Positions 1 to 6,765 of a stretch of 6,765 nucleotides of DNA are shown one piece after another. Within the stretch, counting starts at the first letter, position 1, and every line of letters starts with the position of its first letter. The DNA comes from Bacteroidota bacterium. Lineage in GTDB: Bacteria > Bacteroidota > Bacteroidia > Chitinophagales > Chitinophagaceae. The DNA lies in the NCBI GenBank assembly GCA_013414745.1, contig CP058707.1, forward strand, positions 3,093,372 through 3,100,136, given 5' to 3'. The notes beneath the pieces are model-generated. The model saw nothing but the letters and a program-made list of their open reading frames with translations. It searched no databases and was not told the origin of the DNA. The translations under genes and the position numbers were made by a program.

Positions 1-679
1 GAACCAGATTGCGGGCTTCCAGAATTTCCTGAGGATTCACCACCGGATTAATTTTAGGCTGAAGATGCGGATGAATATTTTGACGAATGATCAGTCGTTC
101 TTCTTCCTTTTGCGGGTAACCTACAACAATCTTCAGCATAAACCGATCTACCTGGGCTTCCGGCAACGGATAGGTTCCTTCCTGTTCAATTGGGTTCTGC
201 GTGGCCAGAACCAGAAACGGTTCCTCTAAACGAAAAGTATTGTCGCCCAGAGTAACCTGTTTTTCCTGCATGGCTTCCAGTAAGGCACTTTGTACTTTGG
301 CCGGAGCCCTGTTAATTTCATCCGCTAAAATAAAATTGGCAAATATGGGACCTTTACGGACCTGAAATTGATTTTGTTGTTGATTATAGATCATCGTTCC
401 AATCACATCAGCAGGCAATAAATCCGGGGTGAACTGGATGCGTGAGAATTTTCCGGCAATAGCAGTTGACAAAGATTTGATGGCCAGGGTTTTTGCCAGC
501 CCCGGAACACCTTCCAGTAAAATATGCCCTTGTGCCAAAAGTCCGATAAGCAGGCGCTCTAGCATATATTTCTGCCCAACGATGGACTTATTCAATTCCA
601 TCTGCAACAGGTCGATAAAGGCGCTTTTCTGATTGATACGTTCATTTAATTCCCGAATATCCTGTGTTGAATGTTCCAT
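1..679 (-). CDS. MoxR-family AAA+ ATPase, N-terminal 226 codons (runs off left edge)
   Basis: MoxR ATPases are cytoplasmic AAA+ chaperone-like proteins, often encoded beside DUF58/von Willebrand A proteins and thought to help mature or insert metal-dependent partners. The translation begins MEHSTQDIRELNERI. It shows a Walker A motif GVPGLAKT at about residues 57-64, a Walker B motif FILADE at about 116-121 followed by INRAPAKVQ, the sensor-1 segment ATQNP at about 159-163, and EAQVDRF at about 174-180. All are characteristic of the MoxR branch. Family members are usually about 320-335 residues, so roughly the last third lies outside the window. The start is the ATG at 677-679: an in-frame TGA at 701-703 lies just upstream with no other start between. 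No Shine-Dalgarno is visible, which is normal in Bacteroidota. The frame is uninterrupted, unlike its neighbour. Partner genes would lie beyond position 1. Family assignment is secure; the specific substrate is unknown. Confidence 0.95.
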   Translation of the reverse strand, partial: MEHSTQDIRELNERINQKSAFIDLLQMELNKSIVGQKYMLERLLIGLLAQGHILLEGVPGLAKTLAIKSLSTAIAGKFSRIQFTPDLLPADVIGTMIYNQQQNQFQVRKGPIFANFILADEINRAPAKVQSALLEAMQEKQVTLGDNTFRLEEPFLVLATQNPIEQEGTYPLPEAQVDRFMLKIVVGYPQKEEERLIIRQNIHPHLQPKINPVVNPQEILEARNLV

Positions 680-876: not shown

Positions 877-1131
877 TTACTTTTCCTGAGAAGGCTTTTG
901 AGCTCCTTTGAATACCTGAACATGATACATACCGGCTTCGAGGGCACTTAAGGCAACACGGAAAGTGTTGTTCCCTTCAACAGCCAGAACGGTATTTTCA
1001 CTGACTAATCGTCCGCTAAGATCGAACAAACGAATTGTAATTTCTTCGCGAACAGAACTTGTCATATCAATGAACAGGATATCCTTAGCAGGGTTAGGAT
1101 ACAGGACAATATTGTCTTGTTCAACAACCAC
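877..1131 (-). CDS. Fragment 7: T9SS type A C-terminal sorting domain
   Basis: This carries the classic C-terminal signal recognised by the type IX secretion system in Bacteroidota: VLYPNPAKDILFID, then RLFDLSGRLV, then ALEAGMYHVQVFKG, about 75 residues at the protein end. The frame is open upstream of 1131 through SPESFQTLANKPGDAEVV, so the start shown is only a conventional GTG. As given it ends QKPSQEK at the stop 877-879. If the T4 run at 881-884 lacked one base relative to the true sequence, the end would instead read QEKVSRLND with a stop at 860-862, closer to the usual K-plus-hydrophobic tail of these domains. The domain assignment is very secure; the exact C-terminus is not. Confidence 0.9.
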   Translation of the reverse strand: MVVEQDNIVLYPNPAKDILFIDMTSSVREEITIRLFDLSGRLVSENTVLAVEGNNTFRVALSALEAGMYHVQVFKGAQKPSQEK

Positions 1132-1171
1132 TTCAGCATCACCAGGTTTGTTGGCTAATGTCTGGAACGAT

Positions 1172-1672
1172 TCAGGGCTCCCATGAACTTCTTGAGTAAG
1201 GAAGCGGTAAACAAACTGAACGAACCTGCCATTCGTACTGGGTATTAGGTATCAAACCAGCCAGATTTTTTGAATTTGGCGTAGTTGTACCCATGATAGC
1301 CGCAGACCAAGGATCGGTTGCTTTTTTGTATCGGGTTTCGTAGAAAGCAGCAGTTGGCTGAACAGCCCAGTTCAATTTAGCAGTTGTACCGGTTACATTC
1401 GATGTAAATAATCCGGTAGGAGCAGGACATGAAATCAGCGTAGTGAAGTATTCTGAAGCACCCCAAGGACCAGGATTACCCAAAGAACAGAATCCACGTA
1501 CCTGAATTTCATAATTACCACCAGCAATCAATCCGATGATATTCTTAAAGGTTGTAGGTGCTGCTTGAGTTCCTCCACCCGTCCAGGTTGGATCTCCTAC
1601 TAAACGGAAACGAACTTCGTACCAGCCTAATCCTGGAATTCCATTCCAATTCACTAACCGTATTGTCTCCAA
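1172..1672 (-). CDS. Fragment 6: Fn3-3 and Fn3-4
   Basis: The true frame runs from about 1650 to 1183. It holds two Fn3 domains. The first has VNWNGIPGLGWYEVRFRL, NYEIQVRGFC and SEYFTTLISCPAP; the second has AKLNWAVQPTAAFYETRYK and TQYEWQVRSVC. Both show the Bacteroidota pattern of a YE(V/T)R strand and a Cys near the domain end. The apparent end (RSSWEP, stop) results from an extra base in the CCC run at 1180-1182. Removing it gives RSSWSPESFQTLANK, the usual close of an Fn3 domain, and joins directly to the sorting-domain fragment. The first residues METIRL belong to the previous frame's overlap. Confidence 0.75.
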   Translation of the reverse strand: METIRLVNWNGIPGLGWYEVRFRLVGDPTWTGGGTQAAPTTFKNIIGLIAGGNYEIQVRGFCSLGNPGPWGASEYFTTLISCPAPTGLFTSNVTGTTAKLNWAVQPTAAFYETRYKKATDPWSAAIMGTTTPNSKNLAGLIPNTQYEWQVRSVCLPLPYSRSSWEP

Positions 1673-3278
1673 TATTACTCATATAAACACCTGTTACCGG
1701 AACAGAATTGGTTACCGTAATCGTGGCAGGAGCAGATGTATTGGTACATCCATTTCCATCCGTATAAGTGTAAGTATATGTTGTAGAAGGACCTGTATAG
1801 GGATTCGCAACAGAGAATGTTCCACCTGAAGGAGTTCCTACTAATTGAAGAGGGAATCCAGGGCATGAACTAAGGTCAGTTGCCGTCACGGTAGGCAGCG
1901 GATGAATGGTTAGATGCAATTCATAATCCTGACATCCAAAATACGCTGTATAGGTTCCTGAAGCAGAATATGTCACATTATTAACTGGCCAGAGATAGCT
2001 GTACGATCCATCCTGAAATTGTTGTGATAATTGGAGGATTCGGTGCTCGGTTACATCCCAAACACAAGTTGTTGTATTGAATGTTGCAGTTTCATAACAA
2101 GCTAATGTTGGCATAGCTGGCATAGATCCAGTGACATCCCACATACAAGTGGTGTGGTTGAACGAGGCCGTTTCATAACAAGCTAATGTTGGCATAGCCG
2201 GCTGCGATCCAGTTACATCCCACATACAAGTGGTGTGATTAAATGAAGCTGTTTCCCAACAAGCCAATGTAGGCATAGCCGGCTGTGAACCAGTGACATC
2301 CCACATACAAGTGGTGTGGTTAAATGAAGCAGTTTCCCAACAAGCCAATGTAGGCATAGCAGGCTGTGAACCGGTTACATCCCACATACAAGTGGTATGG
2401 TTAAATGAAGCAGTTTCCCAACAAGCCAGCGTAGGCATAGCAGGTTGTGAACCTGTTACATCCCACATACAAGTTGTGTGGTTGAAAGAAGCTGTTTCGT
2501 AACAAGCTAAAGTAGGCATAGCCGGCTGTGAACCGGTTACATCCCACATACAAGTGGTGTGGTTAAATGAAGCTGTTTCCCAACAAGCCAGTGTAGGCAT
2601 AGCAGGTTGTGAACCAGTTACATCCCACATACAAGTGGTGTGGTTGAAAGAAGCAGTTTCCCAACAAGCGAGTGTAGGCATAGCAGGCTGTGAACCAGTT
2701 ACATCCCACATACAAGTGGTATGGTTAAATGAAGCTGTTTCCCAACAAGCCAGTGTAGGCATGGCAGGTTGTGAACCAGTTACATCCCACATACAAGTGG
2801 TGTGGTTAAACAAGCAGTTTCCCAACAAGCGAGTAGGCATAGCAGGTTGTGAACCGGTTACATCCCACATACAAGTGGTGTGGTTAAATGAAGCAGTTTC
2901 CCAACAAGCCAGCGTAGGCATAGCCGGCTGTGAACCAGTTACATCCCACATACAAGTGGTATGGTTAAATGAAGCAGTTTCCCAACAAGCCAGCGTAGGC
3001 ATAGCAGGTTGTGAACCGGTTACATCCCACATACAAGTGGTGTGGTTAAATGAAGCAGTTTCCCAACAAGCGAGTGTTGGCATAGCAGGCTGTGAACCTG
3101 TTACATCCCACATACAAGTGGTATGGTTAAATGAAGCAGTTTCCCAACAAGCGAGTGTTGGCATGGCAGGCTGTGAACCGGTTACATCCCACATACAAGT
3201 GGTATGGTTAAATGAAGCAGTTTCCCAACAAGCGGTGTAGGCATCGCAGGTTGTGAACCGGTTACATCCCACATACAA
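1545..3278 (-). CDS. Fragment 5: repeats 15 to 1, second WPVN module, PKD/Ig-like region
   Basis: The true frame runs from about 3234 to 1656. It carries repeats 15 to 1. The last units in reading order drift from the consensus (units 6, 2 and 1 have CYETA; unit 1 has FNTTTCVWDVT). Two compensated shifts hide inside it. Unit 10 reads RLLGNCLF instead of LACWETASF (2811-2833). At 2012-2048 TEHRILQLSQQFQ replaces a likely TGAPNPPIITTIS. Next come a WPVNNVTYSASGTY module (about 2010-1897) and a PKD/Ig-like stretch (SSCPGFPLQLVG ... YTDGNGCTNTSAPATITV). The true frame ends at NIGDNTV, around 1650-1656; the tail after ELEWNSRIRL is spurious. Confidence 0.75.
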   Translation of the reverse strand: MYVGCNRFTTCDAYTACWETASFNHTTCMWDVTGSQPAMPTLACWETASFNHTTCMWDVTGSQPAMPTLACWETASFNHTTCMWDVTGSQPAMPTLACWETASFNHTTCMWDVTGSQPAMPTLACWETASFNHTTCMWDVTGSQPAMPTRLLGNCLFNHTTCMWDVTGSQPAMPTLACWETASFNHTTCMWDVTGSQPAMPTLACWETASFNHTTCMWDVTGSQPAMPTLACWETASFNHTTCMWDVTGSQPAMPTLACYETASFNHTTCMWDVTGSQPAMPTLACWETASFNHTTCMWDVTGSQPAMPTLACWETASFNHTTCMWDVTGSQPAMPTLACWETASFNHTTCMWDVTGSQPAMPTLACYETASFNHTTCMWDVTGSMPAMPTLACYETATFNTTTCVWDVTEHRILQLSQQFQDGSYSYLWPVNNVTYSASGTYTAYFGCQDYELHLTIHPLPTVTATDLSSCPGFPLQLVGTPSGGTFSVANPYTGPSTTYTYTYTDGNGCTNTSAPATITVTNSVPVTGVYMSNIGDNTVSELEWNSRIRLVRSSFPFSRRSNLDGWRNSSSTYNL

Positions 3279-3640
3279 GTGGTGTGGTTAAATGAAGCAG
3301 TTTCCCAACAAGCCAGTGTAGGCATAGCAGGTTGTGAACCAGTTACATCCCACATACAAGTGGTGTGGTTGAAAGAAGCAGTTTCCCAACAAGCGAGTGT
3401 AGGCATAGCAGGTTGTGAACCAGTTACATCCCACATACAAGTGGTGTGATTAAATGAAGCTGTTTCCCAACAAGCCAGCGTAGGCATAGCAGGTTGTGAA
3501 CCGGTTACATCCCACATACAAGTGGTATGGTTAAATGAAGCAGTTTCCCAACAAGCCAATGTAGGCATAGCAGGCTGTGAACCAGTTACATCCCACATAC
3601 AAGTGGTGTGGTTAAATGAAGCTGTTTCCCAACAAGCCAG
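2650..3640. repeat. Higher-order duplicated block, copy A (units 8 part to 20 part)
   Basis: This block matches copy B (3780-4767) base for base by eye, apart from small gaps. Unit 9 pairs with 23, 10 with 24, and so on to 19 with 33, including rare variants such as GCATCGCAGG in units 15 and 29 and TTGAAAGAAG in units 17 and 31. Identity begins after an A/T difference in units 8/22 and ends at a C/T difference (3641 against 4768). Copy A lacks 4 bases relative to a gap-free version of 995 bases. Confidence 0.85.
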
Positions 3641-3760
3641 CGTAGGCATAGCAGGCTGTGAACCAGTTACATCCCACATACAAGTGGTGTGGTTAAATGC
3701 AGCAGTTTCCCAACAAGCCAGCGTAGGCATAGCAGGTTGTGAACCAGTTACATCCCACAT
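3182..3760 (-). CDS. Fragment 4: repeats 22 to 15
   Basis: The true frame runs from about 3800 to 3235, seven to eight copies of the 27-residue unit with two Cys each. Unit 21 has CWETAAFNH, a Ser-to-Ala change that is one of the few amino-acid differences in the array interior. The frame ends at 3234/3235, where AGCGGTG stands for AGCGAGTG (one A missing compared with the otherwise identical unit 29). The out-of-frame tail reads PLVGKLLHLTIPLVCGM, the same false tail as fragment 2, because the same kind of deletion occurred at the same place in the unit. It is an interior slice of the same gene. Confidence 0.65.
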   Translation of the reverse strand: MWDVTGSQPAMPTLACWETAAFNHTTCMWDVTGSQPAMPTLACWETASFNHTTCMWDVTGSQPAMPTLACWETASFNHTTCMWDVTGSQPAMPTLACWETASFNHTTCMWDVTGSQPAMPTLACWETASFNHTTCMWDVTGSQPAMPTLACWETASFNHTTCMWDVTGSQPAMPTPLVGKLLHLTIPLVCGM

Positions 3761-4244
3761 ACAAGTGGTATGGTTGAATGAAGCAGTTTCCCAACAAGCG
3801 AGTAGGCATAGCAGGCTGTGAACCAGTTACATCCCACATACAAGTGGTATGGTTAAATGAAGCTGTTTCCCAACAAGCCAGTGTAGGCATGGCAGGTTGT
3901 GAACCAGTTACATCCCACATACAAGTGGTGTGGTTAAACGAAGCAGTTTCCCAACAAGCGAGTGTAGGCATAGCAGGTTGTGAACCGGTTACATCCCACA
4001 TACAAGTGGTGTGGTTAAATGAAGCAGTTTCCCAACAAGCCAGCGTAGGCATAGCCGGCTGTGAACCAGTTACATCCCACATACAAGTGGTATGGTTAAA
4101 TGAAGCAGTTTCCCAACAAGCCAGCGTAGGCATAGCAGGTTGTGAACCGGTTACATCCCACATACAAGTGGTGTGGTTAAATGAAGCAGTTTCCCAACAA
4201 GTGTTGGCATAGCAGGCTGTGAACCTGTTACATCCCACATACAA
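3693..4244 (-). CDS. Fragment 3: repeats 27 (part) to 22
   Basis: The true frame runs from about 4200 to 3804 and encodes only the 27-residue Cys-rich repeat, from TCWETASFNH to the end of unit 23 and the PAMPT of unit 22. The first ~14 residues (MYVGCNRFTACYAN) are the repeat read in a wrong frame, because about 80 bases between the breaks at 4200 and 4280 are in a third frame. The frame is lost again near 3802, where GAGTAGGC replaces GAGTGTAGGC (two bases missing). After that the translation becomes RLLGNCFIQPYHLYVG. It has no independent start or function; it is an interior slice of the surface protein. Confidence 0.65.
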   Translation of the reverse strand: MYVGCNRFTACYANTCWETASFNHTTCMWDVTGSQPAMPTLACWETASFNHTTCMWDVTGSQPAMPTLACWETASFNHTTCMWDVTGSQPAMPTLACWETASFNHTTCMWDVTGSQPAMPTLACWETASFNHTTCMWDVTGSQPAMPTRLLGNCFIQPYHLYVGCNWFTTCYAYAGLLGNCCI

Positions 4245-4767
4245 GTGGTATGGTTAAATGAAGCAGTTTCCCAACAAGCGGTGTTGGCATGGCAGGCTGT
4301 GAACCGGTTACATCCCACATACAAGTGGTATGGTTAAATGAAGCAGTTTCCCAACAAGCGAGTGTAGGCATCGCAGGTTGTGAACCGGTTACATCCCACA
4401 TACAAGTGGTGTGGTTAAATGAAGCAGTTTCCCAACAAGCCAGTGTAGGCATAGCAGGTTGTGAACCAGTTACATCCCACATACAAGTGGTGTGGTTGAA
4501 AGAAGCAGTTTCCCAACAAGCGAGTGTAGGCATAGCAGGTTGTGAACCAGTTACATCCCACATACAAGTGGTGTGATTAAATGAAGCTGTTTCCCAACAA
4601 GCCAGCGTAGGCATAGCAGGTTGTGAACCGGTTACATCCCACATACAAGTGGTATGGTTAAATGAAGCAGTTTCCCAACAAGCCAATGTAGGCATAGCAG
4701 GCTGTGAACCAGTTACATCCCACATACAAGTGGTGTGGTTAAATGAAGCTGTTTCCCAACAAGCCAG
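3780..4767. repeat. Higher-order duplicated block, copy B (units 22 part to 34 part)
   Basis: This is the second copy of the block at 2650-3640, offset by 14 repeat units. It lacks 7 bases: 2 near 3802, 4 near 4200 and 1 at 4280/4281. In every case copy A carries the full-length version at the matching place, and copy B carries the full-length version where copy A is short. No substitutions were seen between the copies. Confidence 0.85.
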
Positions 4768-5631
4768 TGTAGGCATAGCAGGTTGTGAACCGGTTACATC
4801 CCACATACAAGTGGTGTGATTAAATGAAGCTGTTTCCCAACAAGCCAGCGTAGGCATAGCAGGTTGTGAACCGGTTACATCCCACATACAAGTGGTATGG
4901 TTAAATGAAGCAGTTTCCCAACAAGCGAGCGTAGGCATAGCCGGCTGTGAACCGGTTACATCCCACATACAAGTGGTGTGGTTGAACGAAGCTGTTTCCC
5001 AACAAGCGAGCGTAGGCATAGCCGGCTGTGAACCGGTTACATCCCACATACAAGTGGTGTGGTTAAATGAAGCTGTTTCCCAACAAGCCAGCGTAGGCAT
5101 AGCAGGTTGTGAACCTGTTACATCCCACATACAAGTGGTGTGGTTAAATGAAGCTGTTTCCCAGCAAGCCATTGTTGGCAAAGCTGGCTGTGAACCGGTT
5201 ACATCCCAAGTACACGTGCTGTTATTGAATGAAGCGGTTTCCCAGCAAGCCAGCGTAGGCATGGCAGGTTGCGGTGTAACGGTCAGGTTTAATGTCGTGA
5301 CTACACAATTGGTAGTATCTACATGTGTGCCACTTTGGGTATAGGTCATTCCATTTACAGGCCATGTATAACTAATACAAGCAGATTCATTTTGTGTCAC
5401 TGAAGTATATGAGGTACACAAGGTTCGGAAGGTTGTGATGGTAGACCAGTTGCTCGGAGAATGATCACCCGTGCAATAGGCAGCTACCTGAAAATCATAG
5501 AGAGTGTTAGGAGTTAACATCGAATAATTCTTCATTGCACCAAATTGGTCCATTGACCCAAGAGCCACTTGGCGAAACACGATAACGGGTAGCATACCAT
5601 GCACCAGTAGCCGTCCAACTGATATTCGCAC
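4228..5631 (-). CDS. Fragment 2: end of Fn3-2, WPVN module and repeats 40 to 29
   Basis: The real frame spans about 5541 to 4281; the first ~30 residues up to about DQF are an upstream out-of-frame extension. It opens with the end of Fn3-2 (MLTPNTLYDFQVAAYC ... TITTFRTLC). Next is a module with SACISYTWPVNGMTYT and TTLNLTVTP, a type seen before repeats in secreted Bacteroidota proteins. Then come twelve 27-residue repeats of the form CWETASFNHTTCMWDVTG followed by SQPAMPTLA. The first repeat (unit 40) is the most divergent (FNNSTCTWDVTG). The frame is lost at 4280/4281, where one A is missing relative to the identical unit 14, and the tail PLVGKLLHLTIPLVCGM is out of frame. Unit 27, the next in reading order, has a further 4-base deficit. 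Confidence 0.75.
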   Translation of the reverse strand: MRISVGRLLVHGMLPVIVFRQVALGSMDQFGAMKNYSMLTPNTLYDFQVAAYCTGDHSPSNWSTITTFRTLCTSYTSVTQNESACISYTWPVNGMTYTQSGTHVDTTNCVVTTLNLTVTPQPAMPTLACWETASFNNSTCTWDVTGSQPALPTMACWETASFNHTTCMWDVTGSQPAMPTLACWETASFNHTTCMWDVTGSQPAMPTLACWETASFNHTTCMWDVTGSQPAMPTLACWETASFNHTTCMWDVTGSQPAMPTLACWETASFNHTTCMWDVTGSQPAMPTLACWETASFNHTTCMWDVTGSQPAMPTLACWETASFNHTTCMWDVTGSQPAMPTLACWETASFNHTTCMWDVTGSQPAMPTLACWETASFNHTTCMWDVTGSQPAMPTLACWETASFNHTTCMWDVTGSQPAMPTLACWETASFNHTTCMWDVTGSQPAMPTPLVGKLLHLTIPLVCGM

Positions 5632-5998
5632 CAGTACTGGTTATTCCCCATACCGCTGTGATGGAAGGTGTAGGGCATTTTGCCAATGTTGTAAATTCCT
5701 GTATAGGAGAATAAGAACTGCTTCCCGCCGGACTATTACATATTGTTTGTACCTGGTATTCATAGGTCGTCAGGTCGTTCAGTCCGGTAAATGTTTTGGA
5801 TGTGGTAGAAGAAGTACCATTCATCCAGGAACCGGTAGGGGTTTTAATACGATAACGTACCTGATAATACGCCGCATTGGGAGCGGCAGTCCAGGATACA
5901 GTGACCGTAGTACTGGTTGGTGAGGCACTTATTCCAGTGGGAAAAGCACATTGACCCATGGTATCGCTGGCACTAAAAGTCAGTCCTACGAATGCCAT
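5507..5998 (-). CDS. Fragment 1: end of signal peptide, Fn3-1 and most of Fn3-2
   Basis: From the ATG at 5998 the product begins MAFVGLTFSASDTMGQC, which looks like the hydrophobic core and cleavage region of a Sec signal peptide without its basic N-terminus. An Fn3 domain follows, with the typical strands TVTVSWTAA, YYQVRYR and TYEYQVQTICN, ending in EFTTLAKCPTP. A second Fn3 then runs through NISWTATGAWYATRYRV. True homology ends near SWVNGPI. The last residues (WCNEELFDVNS) are out of frame after an extra base in the AAA run at 5542-5544; removing it gives NGPIGAMKNYSML and carries on into fragment 2. Upstream, removing one G from 6038-6042 joins this frame to an ATG at 6059 and supplies a basic N-region. 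The 5998 start is therefore probably internal. Confidence 0.75.
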   Translation of the reverse strand: MAFVGLTFSASDTMGQCAFPTGISASPTSTTVTVSWTAAPNAAYYQVRYRIKTPTGSWMNGTSSTTSKTFTGLNDLTTYEYQVQTICNSPAGSSSYSPIQEFTTLAKCPTPSITAVWGITSTGANISWTATGAWYATRYRVSPSGSWVNGPIWCNEELFDVNS

Positions 5999-6511: not shown

Positions 6512-6765
6512 TTAAGCCCAGCCCAAAAAAACTTTATTTTTTCCGGCTTTCTTCATCCGCTCTTCATTTTGTTTCTGCATCTCCATCATCCGTTTCATCA
6601 ATTTGTTTTCCTTGGGTGCTTCATTCTTCTTGGCCTGTATTTGAGCATGAATCTTATCCGGGTCTATAATCCAGTTCTGAATCACAAACTGCAAACCAAG
6701 CGTAATCACATTGGACACAAAATAGTAAAAGGTCAACGCAGCAGGTAATTTATTAAAGATACCCA
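6512..6765 (-). CDS. yidC: Membrane protein insertase YidC, C-terminal ~83 residues (runs off right edge)
   Basis: YidC/Oxa1 inserts and folds inner-membrane proteins, alone or with SecYEG. The visible part reads GIFNKLPAALTFYYFVSNV, then ITLGLQFVIQNWIIDPDKI, matching the last transmembrane segment of YidC with its LPA-x5-YYFVSN signature. It is followed by a charged cytoplasmic tail rich in Lys, Met and Gln (NKLMKRMMEMQKQNEERMKK) and ends VFLGWA. A long basic tail is usual in Bacteroidota YidC and is thought to contact the ribosome. Family members are about 600 residues, so most of the gene lies beyond 6765. The frame continues to the edge with no start needed in the window. No frameshift is seen. 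Confidence 0.92.
   Translation of the reverse strand, partial: GIFNKLPAALTFYYFVSNVITLGLQFVIQNWIIDPDKIHAQIQAKKNEAPKENKLMKRMMEMQKQNEERMKKAGKNKVFLGWA

Follow-up and report, generated by a model that had tools for sequence, protein, structure and literature searches.

The window analysed here, a stretch of 6,765 nucleotides, holds a coding repeat array in which two blocks differ by six gaps and by no substitution. Very probably, these gaps are not real deletions but consensus errors of an error-prone long-read assembly, likely a nanopore one, and the gene that carries them is likely intact in the living cell; we infer the platform and the cause of the errors from the assembled sequence alone.

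The window contains, all on the minus strand, the start of a MoxR-type ATPase gene, a gene spanning roughly 5.1 kb and the 3' part of a likely YidC gene (Table 1); the product of the latter matches DUF4199 as weakly as it matches PF02096. The long, repetitive gene is predicted to encode a secreted bacterial protein and holds fn3 modules, a C-terminal T9SS sorting domain and an array of 40 units of 81 bp. The type A sorting domain exceeds the curated cut-offs of both PF18962 (52.5 bits, cut-off 27) and TIGR04183 (41.3 bits, cut-off 23). For the array ORFs at 1545-3278 and at 4228-5631, a Pfam search gave nothing at E <= 0.001. An NCBIfam match on an array segment reached 21.8 bits against a cut-off of 450 and was taken as chance, while the fibronectin-type chains returned by a PDB profile search lay at profile positions 518-707 and were set aside as likely reflecting the fn3 parts of relatives rather than the array. 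Finally, the structure predicted for a segment of six units (mean pLDDT 50.8, pTM 0.44) was too poor for use or search.

Table 1. Features of the window, with positions counted from its first nucleotide.
Feature	Position	Strand	Basis
MoxR-family AAA ATPase, N-terminal 226 aa; truncated by the window edge, frame unbroken	2..679	-	PF07726, E 1.1e-66
Long repetitive gene (about 5.1 kb) with a predicted secreted product	877..5998	-	
C-terminal flank of the long gene, with linker, fn3 and T9SS tail; frame broken four times, near 1180, 1655, 2010 and 2047	877..2052	-	Frame-tolerant alignment with P0034; Por_Secre_tail and fn3 matches
Array of 81-bp units (27 codons each), 40 in number; units 10, 15, 22, 27 and 28 are short	2053..5281	-	TRF and unit split
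Block A; short by 1 (2811/2812), 2 (2833) and 1 (3234/3235) relative to block B	2650..3640 (991 bp)	-	Alignment, 0 substitutions
Stretch between the blocks; 8 substitutions relative to the stretch 14 units on	3641..3779 (139 bp)	-	Alignment
Block B; short by 2 (3802), 4 (4200) and 1 (4280/4281) relative to block A	3780..4767 (988 bp)	-	Alignment, 0 substitutions
N-terminal flank of the long gene: fn3; one frame break near 5548	5282..5998	-	Frame-tolerant alignment and fn3 match
Likely YidC-type insertase, C-terminal part; runs off the window	6512..6763	-	PF02096, E 0.00068, under the curated cut-off

TRF reported a period of 81 with 39.9 copies at 2050-5271. After division into units, with the end of unit 40 set at 81 bp, the spacing was 81 bp in 34 of 39 cases, and all gaps fell in the five short units. 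We compared the 31 full core units (2215-5119), i.e. units 3-38 minus the five short ones, with units of the duplicated blocks counted twice. These units comprise 23 distinct DNA sequences that differ by 5.2 bases per pair, with variation at 18 of the 81 columns across units; nevertheless, 29 of the 31 encode an identical 27-aa peptide. Over the 465 unit pairs, pS was 0.275 and pN 0.0046, giving a pN/pS ratio of 0.017. The near-invariance of the peptide despite silent differences in the DNA indicates that the reading frame is under strong selection, and real frame-breaking deletions would therefore be strongly selected against, barring a very recent break. Speculatively, encoding the same peptide with silent diversity may help protect the array from loss by recombination.

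The preliminary description had claimed that 2650-3640 and 3780-4767 differ by indels only and that each gap in one block is full length in the other. Global alignment of the two blocks gave 0 substitutions and six gaps at the claimed positions, and the full-length counterpart was present for every gap. The blocks lie 14 units apart in the array. At this offset, 11 consecutive whole units (9-19 versus 23-33) matched without a substitution, whereas no other offset between 1 and 29 had a substitution-free run of more than 1 unit, and the means there were 5.7 to 8.8 substitutions per unit pair; the match at offset 14 is therefore not due to chance. The first base beyond each end of the blocks is a substitution (2649/3779 and 3641/4768). 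Thus, the blocks are a maximal substitution-free run and the count of zero is conditional on where they were cut. Still, 0 substitutions in 991 bp beside 8 in 139 bp is a real contrast. The earlier step from indel-only divergence to sequencing error stands as the best explanation on the grounds of peptide conservation, recurrent gap products and breaks in the flanks, whereas the zero substitutions, on which it had leaned, are partly built in by the cut.

Identity without a substitution extends over 991 bp, whereas the offset of 14 units amounts to 1134 bp. Had the block been copied by simple tandem duplication, identity should cover the whole offset; the shorter run therefore suggests that the duplication likely involved either local exchange at a later stage or recombination of arrays that were unlike. 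Because each block carries private gaps and the run of identity falls short of the offset, the two blocks likely represent a real duplication that arose via recombination between repeat units.

Relative to the 81-bp unit, all six array gaps are losses and none is a gain. Moreover, losses recur: units 10 and 22 lack the same two bases, and units 15 and 28 the same single base. The partners of these units 14 units away (24, 8, 29 and 14, respectively) are full length, and the variants neighbouring the recurrent losses differ, supporting that the losses arose repeatedly and were not inherited with the duplication. That each gap is private to one block, with recurrent products that could mark hot spots, would also fit real length variants in a mixed population that switch a surface protein. 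We find this reading hardly credible, since several simultaneous breaks would keep the gene off and, although a GTGT run holds two of the six gaps, a homopolymer of 3 or more underlies none of them (0 of 6).

Every one of the six array gaps touches or adjoins CGA (under uniform placement, P is about 6e-10, with the motif chosen post hoc). Consistently, five of the 14 units with GCGAG are short as opposed to 0 of the 26 others (one-sided p 0.003), and the 10 units with CCAGTGT or CCAATGT at the place of GCGAG are all full length. This pattern would agree with a narrower form of consensus error, i.e. nanopore miscalls at a modified base within a recognition site that includes CGA, and motif-locked nanopore errors have been described in excerpts of PMC10687267 and, at Dcm sites, of PMC6591954. 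Outside the array, however, the breaks in the flanks are not enriched near CGA/TCG: one of five lies within 3 bases (a distance that covers 16% of flank positions), two of five within 6 (24%) and three of five within 10 (34%). Likewise, the window holds 46 CGA sites and most are without a break. In the flanks, CGA did not hold up as a window-wide error motif. Plain sequence-context miscalling without any modification would fit equally well. Together, these points leave miscalling at a modified base possible but doubtful. That the gaps are the footprint of an undescribed Bacteroidota DNA modification at such a site, exposed as basecalling scars because the array is copied twice, strikes us as improbable. 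The lack of CGA enrichment at the flank breaks argues for long-read deletions that are context-dependent in the array, with modification as a minority reading.

The gaps lie at or beside variable columns (30 and 51-54), as might be expected if reads had been placed in the wrong repeat register, such that the consensus mixed units and lost bases at columns where they differ. Such mixing, which would likewise count as a consensus error, should also have replaced minority letters by majority ones, yet there are 0 substitutions. In addition, 18 columns vary while gaps are found at two places only, and the flanks, which are not part of the array, are broken as well. We therefore regard wrong-register reads as an unlikely source of the gaps.

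Relative to the unbroken relative P0034, the flanks of the long gene contain five frame breaks, of which the one near 5548 is weaker than the other four in the frame-tolerant alignment. This alignment fits a loss or a gain alike at the flank breaks, and the loss-only count covers the array gaps. With 11 gaps or breaks in one gene beside an intact MoxR neighbour, the deletions could be genuine and the gene a real, recently broken pseudogene. By contrast, the relaxed selection expected of a pseudogene is absent, as judged from the pN/pS ratio, which a very recent loss of function would escape, and from the identical peptide; moreover, the pieces of the C-terminal frame match P0034 closely when aligned. 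A pseudogene would also need a nearly indel-only process, and 0 substitutions together with six indels have a probability of 2e-5 if five substitutions per indel are assumed. Altogether, we consider a genuine pseudogene very improbable.

The MoxR frame is without a break over 678 bp, implying that consensus errors would be unevenly spread. It also lacks stops in three genomes at 87-88% identity, which were drawn as family members of the genome of Flavipsychrobacter. Among the best 80 MoxR loci of 589 relatives in the scan of genome contigs, the best match was at 77% (Flavipsychrobacter stenotrophus) and none was a close enough reference. The MoxR relatives are nearly all from Bacteroidota, with a Myxococcales title on 2 of the best 80 of 589. 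By pattern count and listed ORFs, the array was not seen in the 3.7 kb around MoxR in each of G087, G164 and G217 (L095-L097).

A search with one array ORF gave 211 proteins at E <= 0.001 among 7992 candidates scored. By motif pattern, 110 of the best 120 of these 211 relatives contain at least three repeat units in register, and 14 relatives share 58-84% identity with the array segment in the parts that align. The names in the source records include those of Bacteroidota T9SS and gliding-motility proteins, and many relatives are entered as hypothetical. Because database proteins are open by construction, they are no control for intact frames. In 294 family genomes searched with the array only, G286 alone matched; neither of its two matches contains a stop, and the open frames around them run to 3476 and 856 aa. 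In the array of this genome at L085, seven units are all spaced by 27 aa without a stop. For one of the two matches, the first base is number 4 of the contig, which is what an assembly broken inside an array would show; the window covers all 40 units. Control from other genomes thus consists of this one genome: 58 match rows in 14 of the 294 family genomes, 57 of them without stops, were dropped as a control, because most fall on the query ahead of or just around residue 121, the first of the repeat, and match the flank module rather than the array. As an observation on the repeat itself, the pN/pS ratio of the window array is far under that of the seven-unit array in L085 (0.169).

The nearest array relative among the matches listed is P0001, which comes from a MAG contig of 4.27 Mb that we take to be likely long-read. 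The end of P0001 matches the out-of-frame ORF at 1675-1866 of the window (30 aa, 40%, E 1e-5 for the pair). To judge from its sequence, the public record of P0001 probably also carries a frame break. Another relative, L090 on contig C101 of G154, contains a different module with a spacing of 46 aa, which resembles the module preceding the array in the window. Plasmid records gave no near match, and a 40-base pattern of one unit had 0 exact matches in viral contigs.

In the mechanism that we propose, long reads would have spanned the array, short-read polishing would have been unable to place reads within it, and the consensus would have lost bases, in the array always beside CGA. Against consensus error stand the position of the gaps outside homopolymers, the flanks without a CGA bias, the clean MoxR frame, the cut of the blocks at substitutions and the control that consists of one genome. 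In total, the case is likely an ordinary one, in which the gene is whole and the gaps are consensus errors. If the error is context-dependent, both blocks could err at one site, and the 81-bp frame would be a better yardstick than the mutual repair of the blocks suggested in the preliminary description.

If the gaps are consensus errors, annotation would wrongly present this gene as broken fragments, and likely do so for other genes of the assembly too. More generally, a duplicated block within a coding repeat would provide an internal, reference-free check of consensus quality for metagenome contigs. The CGA context, if it held true genome-wide, would point to a modification motif.

According to excerpts of PMC6868369 and PMC12007338, long-read errors are mainly indels, and in the latter nanopore deletion errors are tied mainly to homopolymers. 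Like the gene-fragmenting indel errors of long-read (nanopore) assemblies treated in these excerpts, the differences within the array are dominated by indels, are deletions and break conserved frames; unlike them, the array gaps lie in one CGA context and off homopolymers, although the link with homopolymers, while common, is not universal among long-read errors that have been described. Similarly, the clustering of the array errors in one short context resembles the modification-mediated nanopore errors in the excerpts of PMC10687267 and PMC6591954, from which it differs in that the context is shared in the array only and not by the flank breaks. With respect to the encoded protein, the same 27-aa repeat is present in T9SS cargo proteins of Bacteroidota such as P0034, P0001 and P0053, and P0034 shares the Por_Secre_tail and the C-terminal modules. 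By contrast to these T9SS relatives, the array in the window comprises 40 units as opposed to at most 13 in register among the best 120 of 211, where lengths are limited by the search, and its peptide is almost invariant.
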